NCBI RefSeq assembly: GCF_000828055.2 | Contig: NZ_CP010523.2 | Location: forward strand, 2,232,001 to 2,296,000 | Source: Klebsiella variicola | GTDB lineage: Bacteria > Pseudomonadota > Gammaproteobacteria > Enterobacterales > Enterobacteriaceae | Reading direction: 5' to 3' | DNA: 64,000 nt | Shown: positions 11,457 through 16,783 of the stretch, one piece after another | Numbering within the stretch: the first letter of the stretch is position 1 | How the letters are laid out: each line of letters starts with the position of its first letter | The notes under the pieces: model-generated | Database searches by the model: none | The model's input: only the letters and a program-made list of their open reading frames with translations | Told to the model about the DNA's origin: nothing | Position numbers and translations under genes: made by a program

Positions 11457-12293
11457 ATGGTGATTAGTGGAAATACGCGGCTGATAGCGCACCTTGGCTA
11501 TCCGACCGCCAGTTTTAAGGCGCCGATGATCTATAACCCGTGGTTCGTCGACCAGCAGGTGGACGTGAAGGTGGTGCCGATGGGGGTCAGGCCGGAGGAC
11601 TACGCCGCGTTTATTCCGCCGCTGTTTACGATGACCAACATCATCGGCGCGCTGGTGACGATGCCGCATAAAATCGCCACCTGCGATCTGGTCCAGCGCC
11701 TGAGCCCGACGGCGGCCATCGCCGGCGCCTGCAACGCCATCCGTCGCGAGGCCGACGGTAACCTGAGCGGGGATATGTTCGATGGCGACGGCTTTGTGCT
11801 GGGCCTGCGTCGTAAAGGGTTTAATCCGCAGGGGACGCGGGCGCTGGTGGTCGGCAGCGGCGGGGTGGGGTCGGCTATCGCCGCCTCCCTCGCCGCGGCG
11901 GGAGTCAGCGCCCTGACCCTGTACGATACCCGGCCCGAGGTGGCGCACGCCCTCGCCGGACGGCTGCATCAGCACTATCCGCTGCTCGATATCACCCTGA
12001 TGCAGCACGATCCTGTCGGACACGAGCTGGTGGTCAATGCCACCCCGCTGGGGATGAAGGCCAGCGATCCGCTGCCGCTGGACGTTGACCGTCTGGCGCC
12101 AGGCACCTGGGTGGGGGAGGTGGTGATGACCCAGGAGTACACCCCGCTGCTGAGGGCCGCTCAGGCGCGACAGTGCCATATCCAGCGCGGGACCGACATG
12201 TTGTTTGAAATGATCCCCGCTTATCTGCGCTTTTTCGACCTGCCGGTAGCCACCCCCGAGCAGCTGCGCGCGCTGGCGGAAATTCGCTACTGA
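11457..12293 (+). CDS. Shikimate dehydrogenase-family protein (divergent)
   Basis: This 278-residue, two-domain protein of the AroE/YdiB superfamily is expected to oxidise shikimate or quinate with NAD(P)+. The catalytic lysine motif is present (VTMPHK), as is a catalytic aspartate in GDMFDGDGF and a Rossmann loop (VVGSGGVGSAIA). The N-terminal substrate motif is altered. Where AroE and YdiB have H-S-x-S-P, this protein has S-F-K-A-P, so both shikimate-binding serines are missing. The usual NTD motif has also become MFD. The substrate may therefore differ from plain shikimate. It is the last gene of the cluster. Confidence 0.82.
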   Translation: MVISGNTRLIAHLGYPTASFKAPMIYNPWFVDQQVDVKVVPMGVRPEDYAAFIPPLFTMTNIIGALVTMPHKIATCDLVQRLSPTAAIAGACNAIRREADGNLSGDMFDGDGFVLGLRRKGFNPQGTRALVVGSGGVGSAIAASLAAAGVSALTLYDTRPEVAHALAGRLHQHYPLLDITLMQHDPVGHELVVNATPLGMKASDPLPLDVDRLAPGTWVGEVVMTQEYTPLLRAAQARQCHIQRGTDMLFEMIPAYLRFFDLPVATPEQLRALAEIRY

Positions 12294-12316
12294 CGCGACG
12301 GCAAACCGGGTAATAT

Positions 12317-12344
12317 AGCGTTATATTATCCGGTTTATAGCGAC
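12317..12344 (+). promoter_or_regulatory. ModE-like box upstream of the ModA-like gene
   Basis: Half-sites AGCGTTATATT (12317-12327) and TTTATAGCGAC (12334-12344) are separated by 6 bp. They resemble the ModE operator (half-site TATATAACGA or TATATAGCGA, 6-bp spacer). The site ends 6 bp before the start codon. It overlaps a second inverted repeat (AACCGGGTAATATA and its near-complement, 12304-12336). Confidence 0.6.
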
Positions 12345-12349
12345 TATCT

Positions 12350-13093
12350 ATGATGTCCACTCCTCTCACGCTGCTGGCGGCGGGAAGCCTGAGAAGCGCT
12401 TTCCTGCCGCTGGTGGCGCACTTTCAGCAGCACACTGGCCTGGCGGTCGATGCGCAGTTTGGCCCTGCCGGCCTGCTGCGCGAGCGGATCGAGGCCGGGG
12501 CGCCGTGCGCGGTTTTTGCGTCCGCCAACGCGGCGCACCCGCAGGCGCTGCTGCAGGCCGGTCTGGCGCAGGAATGCCAGGGATTTGCCGGCAACCAGCT
12601 GATGCTGACCGCCCGGCGGTCGCCGGACAACGATGGCCTGGACTGGCTGGCGCTGCTCAGCACGCCCCGCCTGCGGCTGGCGACCTCCACGCCGGGATGC
12701 GATCCGTCGGGAGATTATACCTGGCAACTGTTTGCCCGAATTGAGGCGCACTATCCTGGGTTGGGCAACGCGATAGCCGGGCGGGCGCAGCCGCGGGTCG
12801 GCGGCAGAGACTCACTGAGCGTGCCGCCGGGCGAGATAGCCGGCGCGTGGCTTATTCGCCAGAATCTGGCGGATCTGTTTATCGGCTACGCGCACTATGG
12901 CCCCGCGCTGGCCGCCTGCGACGATCTGCGTACCCTGACCATCCCGGCGCCGTGGAATATTCGCTGCGATTACCAGCTGGCGCGTCTCAGGGCGGATCCC
13001 GCCGCGCTGGCCCTGTATCGCTTTATCCTCGGCGACGTTGGCCAGAGGTATCTCCGGCAGGCGGGTTTTATGCCGTTCAGCGACGCAGAGTAA
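12350..13093 (+). CDS. ModA-like molybdate-binding protein without signal peptide
   Basis: The 247-residue protein belongs to the ModA-type periplasmic binding fold (LLAAGSLRSAFLPLV near the N-terminus, FASANAAHPQAL, and a Cys-Asp-Pro-Ser-Gly-Asp segment). Unlike ModA it starts directly at the mature domain, with no hydrophobic leader. An in-frame stop at 12338-12340 excludes an upstream start in this frame. It is probably cytoplasmic. A ModE-like box precedes it, and it converges on the ABC transporter cluster with a 17-bp overlap of the 3' ends. A role in molybdate binding or buffering is inferred. The two adjacent ATGs (12350, 12353) cannot be separated. Confidence 0.75.
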   Translation: MMSTPLTLLAAGSLRSAFLPLVAHFQQHTGLAVDAQFGPAGLLRERIEAGAPCAVFASANAAHPQALLQAGLAQECQGFAGNQLMLTARRSPDNDGLDWLALLSTPRLRLATSTPGCDPSGDYTWQLFARIEAHYPGLGNAIAGRAQPRVGGRDSLSVPPGEIAGAWLIRQNLADLFIGYAHYGPALAACDDLRTLTIPAPWNIRCDYQLARLRADPAALALYRFILGDVGQRYLRQAGFMPFSDAE

Positions 13094-13826
13094 ACCCCGG
13101 CGCCAGCAGAGGGGACGCGGACGCTGGATGGTAGATCAGACGTACCGGCAGGCCGTACGCTTGCCGGAGGTGCGTTTCGCTCAGCACGTCGGCGGTCTCG
13201 CCTGCCAGCCACTGGCCCTCCGGCAGAAGCAGCAGCGTATGGCTGGCCACCTGCAGCGCATGGTTTGGATCATGGGTGGTGAACAGGACGGTGCGTGCCT
13301 GGCGGTGAGCGAGGTCGCCGATCAGCTGCAATACCACCTGCTGGTTACCGAGGTCCAGCGCCGAGCAGGGCTCATCCAGCAGGATATTCTGGCTGGCGCT
13401 GACCAGCGCGCGGGCAATCAGCACCAGCTGCTGCTGGCCGCCGGAGAGGGCGCCGAAGTCATCCCCGGCCAGGGCGGCAATCCCCAGCTGCGCCAGCGCG
13501 TTCTCAACCCGCCGGGCATCCTCCTCGCCAGGCTGGGCAAAGAGATCCACATGACGGGCGCGGCCCATCAGCACCACATCGCTCACGCGCCAGCGAAAAG
13601 CGGGACGAAACGACTGCGGGACCAGGGCGATGCCCCCCTCGCACTGCACCTGGCCGCCCAGCGGCGGCAACACGCCGGTCAGGGTGTCCAGCAGGGTACT
13701 TTTTCCCCGGCCATTGGCGCCCAGCACCGCCCAGATCTCACCGGGCCGGCAGGTCAGCGTGAGCGGGGCGAAGAGCGGCTGACGGTGGCCGTAGCGTAGC
13801 GCTTCCAGCGATAATGAGCTGTTCAT
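13077..13826 (-). CDS. ABC transporter ATPase (BtuD/FecE/MolC type)
   Basis: This 249-residue cytosolic ATPase would power the permease encoded just upstream. It has Walker A GANGRGKST, signature LSGGQQQ and Walker B ILLDEPCSALD. Its start overlaps the permease stop by 4 bp (ATGA). The ModE-like boxes and the neighbouring ModA-like gene favour molybdate or tungstate over iron or cobalamin, as in the Haemophilus MolBCA system. This is an inference. Confidence 0.85.
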   Translation of the reverse strand: MNSSLSLEALRYGHRQPLFAPLTLTCRPGEIWAVLGANGRGKSTLLDTLTGVLPPLGGQVQCEGGIALVPQSFRPAFRWRVSDVVLMGRARHVDLFAQPGEEDARRVENALAQLGIAALAGDDFGALSGGQQQLVLIARALVSASQNILLDEPCSALDLGNQQVVLQLIGDLAHRQARTVLFTTHDPNHALQVASHTLLLLPEGQWLAGETADVLSETHLRQAYGLPVRLIYHPASASPLLAPGFTLRR

Positions 13827-14830
13827 CGGGCGGTACTCCGGCGCCGGGATTGCACCAGTAAAAAGGTAAACAGCGGCGCCCCGAGCAGGGCAGTGATGAT
13901 CCCGATCGGGATTTCCGCCTGGGTCAGCGTGCGCGCCAGATCGTCCACCACCAGCATCAGCGCGGCGCCAAGCCAGAAGGCGGTGGGCAGCAGGCGACGA
14001 TGGTCAGCGCCCACCAGCAGACGGGCGAGGTGCGGGACCACCAGCCCCATCCAGGCGATGCTGCCGCTGACCGCCACCTGGGCTGCCACCAGCACTGCAC
14101 AGCACACCAGCACGCCGCGACGCAGCGCGGCCACCGGAACGCCAAGACTGCGGGCATCGCGTTCCTCCAGCGCCAGCAGGTTGATACGCCAGCGCAGCTT
14201 CCACAGCACCCCGGCGGCTAGCGCCATGGGCAGGGACATAAGCAGAACCTTATGCCAGCTGGCGGTCGCGAAGCTGCCGAGCAGCCAGAAAACAATGTTC
14301 GGTAACGTCTCTTCGCTATCGGCGAGGTACTGCATCAGGCTGACCAGCGCGGCGAAGAAGCCGCTGAGAATGATCCCGGACAGAATCAGCCCCAGCGTGC
14401 TGTCCCGCCCCTGCAGGGCGGCGAGGGCGTAAATCAGCCCCAGCGCGATGAGGCCGAAGAAAAAGGTCGAGGCCATCATCAGCAGACCGCCGACGCCCAA
14501 CAGGATCGCCAGCGTGCCGCCGAAGGCGGAGCCGGCGGTCACCCCGATGATGTGCGGGTCCACCAGCGGGTTCTGGAACACGCCCTGCAAGGTGGCGCCG
14601 CACAGCCCCAGCGCGCCCCCGGCCAGCAGAGCCATGACCACGCGCGGCAGGCGAACCGACCAGACGATCTGCCCGATCACCCCTTCACCTGGCGGCAAAT
14701 GGACCAGGGTGTGGCCAACGGCGCGCAGGCTTAACGGGTACTGGCCGAAACAGAGCGAGGCGACCGCGATCGCCAGCGTCGCCAGCGCCAGGCTACCCTG
14801 CAACCGCCAGGGATGGTGGTTAGCGCGCAT
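13823..14830 (-). CDS. FecCD/BtuC-family ABC permease (MolB type)
   Basis: This inner-membrane permease of the BtuCD type has about 335 residues and around ten hydrophobic helices. Family motifs include [26 protein letters not shown] near the front and [13 protein letters not shown] in the second half. I placed the start at the ATG at 14830 ([11 protein letters not shown]), which overlaps the binding-protein stop by 11 bp. A longer frame to 14890 would overlap it by 71 bp. It is translationally coupled on both sides. Confidence 0.85.
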   Translation of the reverse strand: [335 protein letters not shown]

Positions 14831-15878
14831 CTGACGTCCACGCCACGCGGTAAAAACGCTGATAGTAATCCCTGGCTTTACTGTCCACATCGATGCTCTG
14901 GTAGCGCGAAGGATAGAGTTTTTTCGCCATCCACAGCTCGCCCAGCGCCAGGGCCTCCGGCATCGGGTAACCCCAGGCTTTGGCGTACTCCGGCATCAGC
15001 CACACGCGGTGGTGTTTCACCGCATCGATCGCCTGCCACTGCGGGTCGTTCTCTATCTGTTTGACCACCTGCGGATAACGGTCCTGGACGAAGATCACCT
15101 GCGGGTTCCACTCCAGCACCTGCTCCAGCGACACCTGACGGGCGCCTTTTACGCTGGCGGCCGCCACGTTCAGCGCCCCGGCGTGCGCCATCATCAGCCC
15201 GGTGTATTTACCGGCGCCGTAGGTATTCAGATCGGGGTTGGCCATATACACCCGCACCCGCTGGTTCGGTGGAATATCGGCCACCGGCGCATTGGCTTTT
15301 TTGCGCGCCGCAAAGGTGTAGTGAATCAGCGCCTCGGCCTCGGGCTGGCGCTCGACGACCTCGCCGATAAGGCGGATCCCCTCCACCAGCCCGGCGTTAT
15401 AGGCCTGCTCTTCGTCAGCCATGGTGGGGTTCATTTTATTTTTTTCCCCGGCGGCGTCCTGGCGCAGCGAGATGGCCACCACCGGGATCCCGGCCTGTTG
15501 GATCTGCGCGATCATCGCCGGCGGCGCATAGTTGGCGACAAAAACCACCTGCGGACGCAGCGCCAGCAGGCTTTCAATATTGACCTGGGTGAGATCGCCC
15601 GGGGTCGCCAGCTGCCCGATCTCAGGCATAAAGCGGGCGAACTGCGGCCCGAGCTGTTTCTGCCAGCTGCTTAAGACGCCGACGATATCCTCGGCGGCAT
15701 GCAGTTGCACCAGCAGGTTGAGCGTCTGATGTTGCAGAACCACGACGCGGGTGATGTGGTCGGGGAGCGTGACCTGGCGACCCAGCTGGTCGGTGACGGT
15801 GCGGTCGGCGAAGGCCTGGCCGGTGAACAGGCTGGCGCTGAGCAGCGTCAGGCCCAGCAGTAAGGGGTGTTTTGACAT
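14820..15878 (-). CDS. ABC transporter periplasmic binding protein (MolA/BtuF-like)
   Basis: This 352-residue class III periplasmic binding protein has a Sec signal peptide (about 1-24, ending QAFA) and two lobes joined by a long helix. Typical motifs are TDQLGRQVTLPDHITRVVVL and ALRPQVVFVANY. The near-C-terminal YAKAWGYPMPEALALGELW resembles the oxyanion-binding MolA branch more than haem or vitamin B12 binders, though this is judged by eye. It is the first gene of a three-gene operon (binding protein, permease, ATPase). A ModE-like box is 26 bp upstream. Confidence 0.82.
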   Translation of the reverse strand: MSKHPLLLGLTLLSASLFTGQAFADRTVTDQLGRQVTLPDHITRVVVLQHQTLNLLVQLHAAEDIVGVLSSWQKQLGPQFARFMPEIGQLATPGDLTQVNIESLLALRPQVVFVANYAPPAMIAQIQQAGIPVVAISLRQDAAGEKNKMNPTMADEEQAYNAGLVEGIRLIGEVVERQPEAEALIHYTFAARKKANAPVADIPPNQRVRVYMANPDLNTYGAGKYTGLMMAHAGALNVAAASVKGARQVSLEQVLEWNPQVIFVQDRYPQVVKQIENDPQWQAIDAVKHHRVWLMPEYAKAWGYPMPEALALGELWMAKKLYPSRYQSIDVDSKARDYYQRFYRVAWTSDAR

Positions 15879-15903
15879 GGTGTGGCCCGAATGGCGTGAA
15901 AAA

Positions 15904-15931
15904 TTCGTTATGTATTAAATTATATAACGAA
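15904..15931 (-). promoter_or_regulatory. ModE-like box over the molABC-type promoter
   Basis: Half-sites TTCGTTATGTA (15904-15914) and TATATAACGAA (15921-15931) with a 6-bp spacer match the ModE operator pattern at 9 and 10 of 11 positions. A -10-like TATAAT on the minus strand (15919-15924) lies inside it. This suits repression by molybdate-loaded ModE. Confidence 0.7.
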
Positions 15932-15970
15932 GCCGGGCGCAATGGGTGATCGCATTTACCCTCATCACGA

Positions 15971-16783
15971 TCAAGGCATTTCGTACCACACTTCTTCCTC
16001 TTCCATGCGGGCCTCTATCTGACTCGCCACCCTCTGCAGGGCGGAAAGATGCTTCTGCGCCGCCTGCTCAATGGTCATCGCGCTGGCGATATAGACCAGA
16101 TTCAGGCAGCCGATAACCCGCTGCTGGCTGCTGACCGGCACGGCGATGGAGGCGATTTTCTCCTCCTGCTGCCAGCCGCGGAAGTTTTCGCCATAGCCGT
16201 TCTGGCGGGTGCGGGCGAGGATCGCCGCCAGCCGTTCCGGTTCGCGGGCCAGCTGATACTCAGCTTCCGGACGGGCGGCCAGCATGCTGACGATGGCGTC
16301 GCGCTCCGCGTCGGGGGCAAAGGCCAGCCACGTCAGCCCGGAGGCGGTGAGCAACAGCGGCAGCCGCCGTCCGACCATCGCGCGGTGAAACGACAGTCGG
16401 CTGAAGCGGTGGGTAGTCTCGCGCACCACCATGGCGTCGACGTCGAGGGTGGTGATGTCTGTCGGCCATTGCACCTCGCGCAGCAGCTCGCCGAGCAGCG
16501 GCGTGGCGAGGGCAGAAATCCAATGTTCGTCACGAAATCCATCGCTCAGCTGGCGGACGTTAATGGTCAACCGGAAGCTGTCATCGGAGCGGCTGCGGCG
16601 GACAAAACCCTCCTCCTGCAGCGTCTCCAGCAGCCGGCGCACGGTGGTGCGATGCAGGCCGCTAAACTCCGCCAGCAGGCCCGGCGTCGCGCCGCCGTCG
16701 AATTTATTTAACAATTTTAATAACAATAAACCCCGGCTTAACCCACGCACCGTTTTGTACTCAGTGGACCCATCGTCACGCAT
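15971..16783 (-). CDS. mhpR: MhpR, IclR-family activator of the mhp operon
   Basis: MhpR activates the mhp genes in response to 3-(3-hydroxyphenyl)propionate. The protein has an N-terminal winged helix (LLAEFSGLHRTTVRRLLETL) and an IclR effector domain (AMVGRRLPLLLTASGLTWLAF), with strong identity to E. coli MhpR. The ATG at 16783 (MRDDGSTEYKTVRG, Shine-Dalgarno AAGGAAGG) gives 270 residues. It is preferred to an upstream start that adds 17 atypical residues. The gene is divergent from mhpA. Confidence 0.94.
   Translation of the reverse strand: MRDDGSTEYKTVRGLSRGLLLLKLLNKFDGGATPGLLAEFSGLHRTTVRRLLETLQEEGFVRRSRSDDSFRLTINVRQLSDGFRDEHWISALATPLLGELLREVQWPTDITTLDVDAMVVRETTHRFSRLSFHRAMVGRRLPLLLTASGLTWLAFAPDAERDAIVSMLAARPEAEYQLAREPERLAAILARTRQNGYGENFRGWQQEEKIASIAVPVSSQQRVIGCLNLVYIASAMTIEQAAQKHLSALQRVASQIEARMEEEEVWYEMP

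Follow-up and report, generated by a model that had tools for sequence, protein, structure and literature searches.

A MolABC-type cluster of Klebsiella variicola with a ModA-like gene and predicted ModE operators

What does a BtuCD-type transporter import when its permease is labelled as part of an iron transporter and its genes lie next to sites that resemble operators of the molybdate-responsive regulator ModE? This question was raised by a four-gene cluster in a 64-kb stretch of the Klebsiella variicola genome (here referred to as the window), in which a sequence-only reading had noticed two ModE-like dyads and a ModA-like gene and had re-assigned the cluster from iron or cobalamin to molybdate/tungstate uptake. 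The public label is as that reading had presumed, at least in one K. pneumoniae record, where the permease gene is annotated as 'iron ABC transporter permease'. The four genes match the molABC-HI1469 cluster of Haemophilus, a known low-affinity molybdate importer. In Haemophilus influenzae, molB is repressed tenfold by molybdate (Rice et al. 2014, PMC4031551), and that report ascribes the coupling of molybdate to molB repression to an unknown factor, while noting that a ModE homolog is present in the organism. The sites in the window offer a testable answer to a point that the 2014 study left open: which factor shuts down the mol genes once molybdate is abundant.

Identity of the cluster

The cluster consists of three overlapping open reading frames on the minus strand, with the permease and ATPase genes in one unit with molA, and of a convergent ModA-like gene whose 3′ end overlaps the 3′ end of molC (Table 1). 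The start of molB is uncertain, and translation may instead begin at an internal ATG.

Table 1. Features of the mol cluster, in positions of the window
Feature	Position	Strand	Basis
molA, binding protein, MolA ortholog, 352 aa	14820..15878	-	PF01497
molB, BtuC/FecCD-type permease	13823..14890	-	PF01032, E 1.8e-81; ORF
molC, ABC ATPase	13077..13826	-	PF00005, E 1.2e-24; ORF
ModA-like protein, 247 aa, likely HI1469 counterpart	12350..13093	+	PF13531, E 5.1e-37
ModE operator (predicted), molABC side	15904..15931 (24-bp core 15906-15929)	-	matrix score 36.6
ModE operator (predicted), ModA-like gene side	12317..12344 (24-bp core 12319-12342)	+	matrix score 22.6

The window MolA is 63% identical to H. 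influenzae MolA (HI1472) over 323 residues, and a profile of 36 binding proteins compared with known structures retrieved HI1472 (3psa) with an E value of 1e-171 and the next structure with an E value of 1.7e-37, which leaves siderophore and B12 binders far behind the HI1472 match. The AlphaFold model of MolA (mean pLDDT of 89.9) also had 3psa as its best match in the PDB, with TM scores of 0.88 and 0.95 when normalized to the query and target lengths, respectively. It is therefore very improbable that the cluster imports iron-siderophore, haem or B12 and that the ModE sites are incidental, as the public label and a fold family common to siderophore, haem and B12 binders might suggest. Against such a substrate stand the E value of the MolA match, which is 134 orders of magnitude lower than that of the next structure, and the lead of MolA in fold, as well as the retention of the molA operator in two families and a neighbouring ModA-like gene in 74 of the 80 named loci (the best 80 of 275). 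We set the annotation-derived substrates aside on the MolA match, in sequence and in fold, and this match corrects the iron-transporter label on the cluster. Together with the conservation of the molA operator far beyond Klebsiella, it upholds the re-assignment to molybdate/tungstate uptake. Judged from its sequence, the cluster is a member of the known MolBCA system, for which a regulator is here newly proposed.

The sequence-only reading had called the cluster analogous to Haemophilus MolBCA. The relation holds, but the word is too weak, since in all likelihood the two are orthologous. PMC3928620 gives HI1469 as modA, adjoining molABC (HI1470-1472), and locus L231, with a MolA that shares 90% identity with HI1472, has the gene order molA-molB-molC-ModA-like and a ModE-type site scoring 16.5; on these grounds, the four-gene set, including the BtuCD-type permease and ATPase (HI1470-HI1472 and HI1469 in Haemophilus), is common to Klebsiella and Haemophilus. 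In contrast to Haemophilus, the ModA-like gene of Klebsiella is convergent with molABC and has a predicted operator of its own.

The organism was also expected to carry a Mod system, and this was the case: ModA, ModB and ModE all exceeded their family cut-offs, with ModE (G000:C1:3847512-3847805) reaching 139.2 bits against a cut-off of 98.5. Hence, the genome encodes both the BtuCD-type Mol cluster and ModABC, which belongs to a different transporter class. The possession of ModABC as well had been presented as a contrast to Haemophilus. This part was not borne out, as H. influenzae is likewise described with a Mod system in PMC4031551.

A class-wide search for MolA at an E value of 1e-60 returned 1 of 321 genomes, drawn evenly from a larger group, and this was the genome of the window itself; a profile of the ModA-like protein at an E value of 1e-20 returned 5 of the 321, its own genome included. 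A megablast search of 20,395 Escherichia coli records found no DNA match, a result that leaves room for distant copies.

Candidate ModE operators and their conservation

Both near-consensus dyads with 6-bp spacers were present exactly where the sequence-only reading had located them, one for each transcription unit. The dyad on the molABC side is CGTTATGTA-N6-TATATAACG, and that on the side of the ModA-like gene is CGTTATATT-N6-TTTATAGCG. They share the operator sequence, the geometry of the 24-bp core and the position shortly before a start codon with the ModE operator of ModABC.

Both sites were scored with a ModE weight matrix. The matrix (28 bp, symmetrized) was trained on the best ModE-type sites before modA, taken from 30 of the 38 genomes in which a strong MolA ortholog occurs, and no training site came from this cluster. 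The training sites were picked with a ModE consensus, from which each of the 30 deviates at no more than two positions. They scored between 19.9 and 35.7 (between 17.4 and 35.2 upon leave-one-out scoring). The molA operator (36.6) exceeded all of them, and the operator of the ModA-like gene (22.6) fell within their range, while the third-best place in the window reached only 6.0. No match of at least 18 occurred in 11 Mb of random sequence that had the dinucleotide make-up of the window.

The whole 5.52-Mb genome contains six sites with at most one mismatch to the consensus, both cluster sites included, and the molA operator is one of only two with no mismatch. Of the other four, one lies in the gap between modA and modE, and three, whose surroundings were named by eye, lie beside moaA, beside a 95-aa gene and within a prophage-like stretch. 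When three mismatches were allowed, the genome gave 143 matches versus 160 for a reversed-pattern control, and therefore only close matches to the consensus carry weight. Chance as the origin of the two dyads was set aside in view of the random-sequence scores and the conservation described below.

The molA operator had also been said to contain the −10 element of the binding-protein operon. A TATAAT hexamer is indeed present within it on the minus strand, but a promoter scan of positions 12240-16000 returned no sigma-70-type match, so it is the hexamer itself that hints at a possible −10 element. The operator of the ModA-like gene ends five bases 5′ of the start codon.

We then followed the operators through related genomes. 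A survey of the family comprised 149 genomes, of which 38, including that of the window, carry a full-length molA ortholog with an E value of 1e-136 or better, and two more carry broken copies. A site scoring at least 12 precedes molA in 35 of the 37 other orthologs; the two without a site of this score are L074, with a dyad whose spacer is one base shorter, and L089, with no dyad. Among named genomes, some of which are common to the family set, such a site precedes molA in all 80 loci (the best 80 of 275 relatives), and elsewhere in the same stretches only five sites of at least 12 occur in 1.15 Mb, against a random expectation of 2.3 per Mb. In a second family, MolA was found at an E value of 1e-60 in 11 of 121 genomes. 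Two MolA proteins of this family share 85% and 90% identity with HI1472, and we take it for the Pasteurellaceae on this ground. Here, sites of at least 15, expected at random twice per Mb, precede molA in 8 of the 11 loci; no site of at least 12 was found before molA in L232, L234 and the broken copy L236, the last of which has a short-spacer dyad. ModE-type sites at the molA locus also occur in records of Pantoea (four), Rhizobium, Pasteurella multocida and K. pneumoniae, and the Paracoccus record has no site of at least 8. The expectation that the dyads would be conserved in related genomes thus held for the molA operator. Broken molA copies with internal stops were observed in L095, L096 and L236, and L095 keeps a site of 24.5.

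For the operator of the ModA-like gene, the same expectation held within Klebsiella, where all six rows scored above 22, but not in general, as only 15 of 63 convergent layouts had a site of at least 12, with the spacer free by one base, some genomes counted twice and one Klebsiella row being a genome of the same genus. The K. pneumoniae record scored 22.2 at this operator, and of three Raoultella rows, two had weak sites at the same place (7.6 and 2.1) and the third had none. As far as these rows go, the strong operator of the ModA-like gene is a Klebsiella trait, and the idea that a ModE site of its own is a general feature of this gene was dropped outside this genus.

The ModA-like protein and a proposed working

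The ModA-like protein found its best NCBIfam matches among models of the PRK03537 type (NF002917 and NF002918), below their curated cut-offs (242.1 versus 288 for NF002918), and it also stayed under those of the modA models TIGR01256 (61.2 versus 62.5 bits) and NF007958 (29 versus 253). Its structural model (mean pLDDT of 97.0) has the ModA fold, which it shares with PRK03537-type proteins, and the best PDB matches were the YvgL-like Lmo1041 and ModA. In the window gene, only three codons lie between an in-frame stop and the start, too few for a signal peptide. The in-frame stop and the chosen start are no more than 15 codons apart in 17 of 33 family loci; at the remaining loci, starts were picked nearest to that of the window, which makes the proof weaker. 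The protein seems to be devoid of a signal peptide, and this apparent absence argues against a second binding protein of the periplasm and for a probably cytoplasmic one. It differs in this respect from its distant relatives in loci L237, L238, L239 and L240, which by eye appear to carry signal or lipoprotein leaders.

The lack of room for a signal peptide and the retention of the gene near molA where molBC is missing would also suit a regulatory or catalytic protein in which the fold alone has been kept. We consider this less likely than a cytoplasmic buffer, given that the residues aligned with the oxyanion-binding serines and tyrosine of ModA are S13, S58 and Y180, and that in an alignment of 34 rows S58 and Y180 are invariant and S13 is nearly so.

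Collectively, these data make us confident that the cluster is the enterobacterial counterpart of Haemophilus molABC-HI1469, most likely a ModE-repressed importer of molybdate, and probably also of tungstate, that operates beside high-affinity ModABC, with the ModA-like protein perhaps as a cytoplasmic buffer or hand-off partner. From the two sites, we infer that ModE controls the cluster. At high cytoplasmic molybdate, molybdate-loaded ModE would bind both operators and block transcription, a block that their positions suggest, with the TATAAT hexamer inside one operator and the start codon of the ModA-like gene five bases behind the other. At low molybdate, both units would be expressed, MolA would pass the oxyanion on to MolBC, and once in the cytoplasm it would be bound by the ModA-like protein. 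We infer ModE occupancy, repression, the identity of the ligand and what the ModA-like protein does, this last step being the least certain.

ModE responds to both molybdate and tungstate, and the ModE sites therefore do not discriminate between the two. It is conceivable, albeit improbable, that ModE acts on the cluster and that the main ligand is tungstate or another oxyanion instead of molybdate. Binding of molybdate as well as tungstate is reported for MolA (PMC4031551), and among the distant relatives of the ModA-like protein, one lies beside a TupA-like gene (L237) and one beside a TupB-like permease gene (L240), both below cut-off; on the other side, the uptake measured in H. influenzae, as described in PMC4031551, was that of molybdate. 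We retain molybdate as the probable main ligand. Rice et al. 2014 (PMC4031551) left open which factor represses the Haemophilus mol genes, and the ModE-type sites at the Klebsiella cluster nominate ModE for this role. A literature search revealed no ModE control of mol genes in the titles and abstracts listed, although the paper on the MolA structure (PMC3258573), a 2003 paper on ModE elements or regulon databases may mention it.

Lineages without molBC and other ModE-type sites

The 37 family orthologs fell into 19 with molB and molC beside molA, 17 with neither and one cut by a contig end. Where molBC is kept, the permease is 57 to 80% identical to the window MolB; in the 17 genomes with neither gene, no permease above 45% identity was found genome-wide among the matches listed. 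Together with the fact that 8 of the 17 genomes are assembled in one to three contigs, this makes an assembly gap unlikely. The operator was kept in 16 of the 17, and the ModA-like gene lay within the stretch also in 16 of the 17. In a tree of 46 MolA proteins, all 17 formed one clade (support 100/99), and two further loci without molBC stood apart, in the second family. ModE exceeded its cut-off in 32 of the 33 genomes given, including 16 of the 17 without molBC beside molA; in G082, a 290-contig assembly, the box is present and no ModE match was found.

In Pantoea sp. At-9b, the pair of molA and the ModA-like gene is divergent from two genes, one for a TonB-dependent receptor and one for a further binding protein, and two ModE-type sites (27.1 and 17.0) lie between the pair and the receptor genes. 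Two of the other Pantoea records have the pair without the receptor neighbour, and one has molA alone. Many genomes that lack the membrane importer still encode the probably cytoplasmic ModA-like protein close to MolA. We tentatively suggest, as one possibility among others, that MolA and the cytoplasmic ModA-like protein are the lasting part of a molybdenum system under ModE control, in which MolBC is replaceable. The clade would then most simply have lost molBC once and may use another importer, in some members perhaps with ModE-controlled TonB-dependent receptors.

One genome, G115, was considered as a case of Mol without Mod, because ModA and ModB were not over their cut-offs, and was rejected. 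It has no molBC adjoining molA, a ModE-type site precedes a permease gene, and a WtpA-like protein is encoded as well, albeit below cut-off; hence, it proves nothing about life with Mol only.

Several further ModE-type sites were observed. Those at L259 5522, L267 4707, L264 8537 and L280 3836 precede genes for TonB-dependent receptors adjoining Peripla_BP_2-type binding proteins (receptors of L259, L267 and L264 and binding proteins of L259 and L267 by Pfam, L280 from annotation), and an uptake of a molybdenum complex by these loci is possible. The site at L263 7189 precedes a cluster for a binding protein, a permease, an ATPase, a methyltransferase-like protein, ModD and a TonB receptor, with ModD called by TIGR01334, the receptor by Pfam and the rest by eye. 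DUF1543 genes, assigned by Pfam in L274 and by eye in the others, follow the sites at L274 5790, L270 5207, L271 5372, L277 5703 and L284 8748-9260, and a DUF1543 gene also lies beside molABC on a Rhizobium plasmid. WtpA-like binding proteins, followed by a permease, are encoded behind the sites at L260 6286 (by NCBIfam, below cut-off) and at L273 4891, L274 6066 and L276 6385 (by eye). Further strong sites, scoring 32.7 to 38.2, were found at L261 4195, L268 4988, L272 5635 and L275 5674.

In the genome of the window, the site upstream of the 95-aa gene lies at L011 1501-1524 (C1:741117), and this gene is perhaps yghW. The moaA gene of the same genome (L014 194-1406, near C1:3804035) consists of two overlapping open reading frames, as if frameshifted, which may reflect an error or be real.
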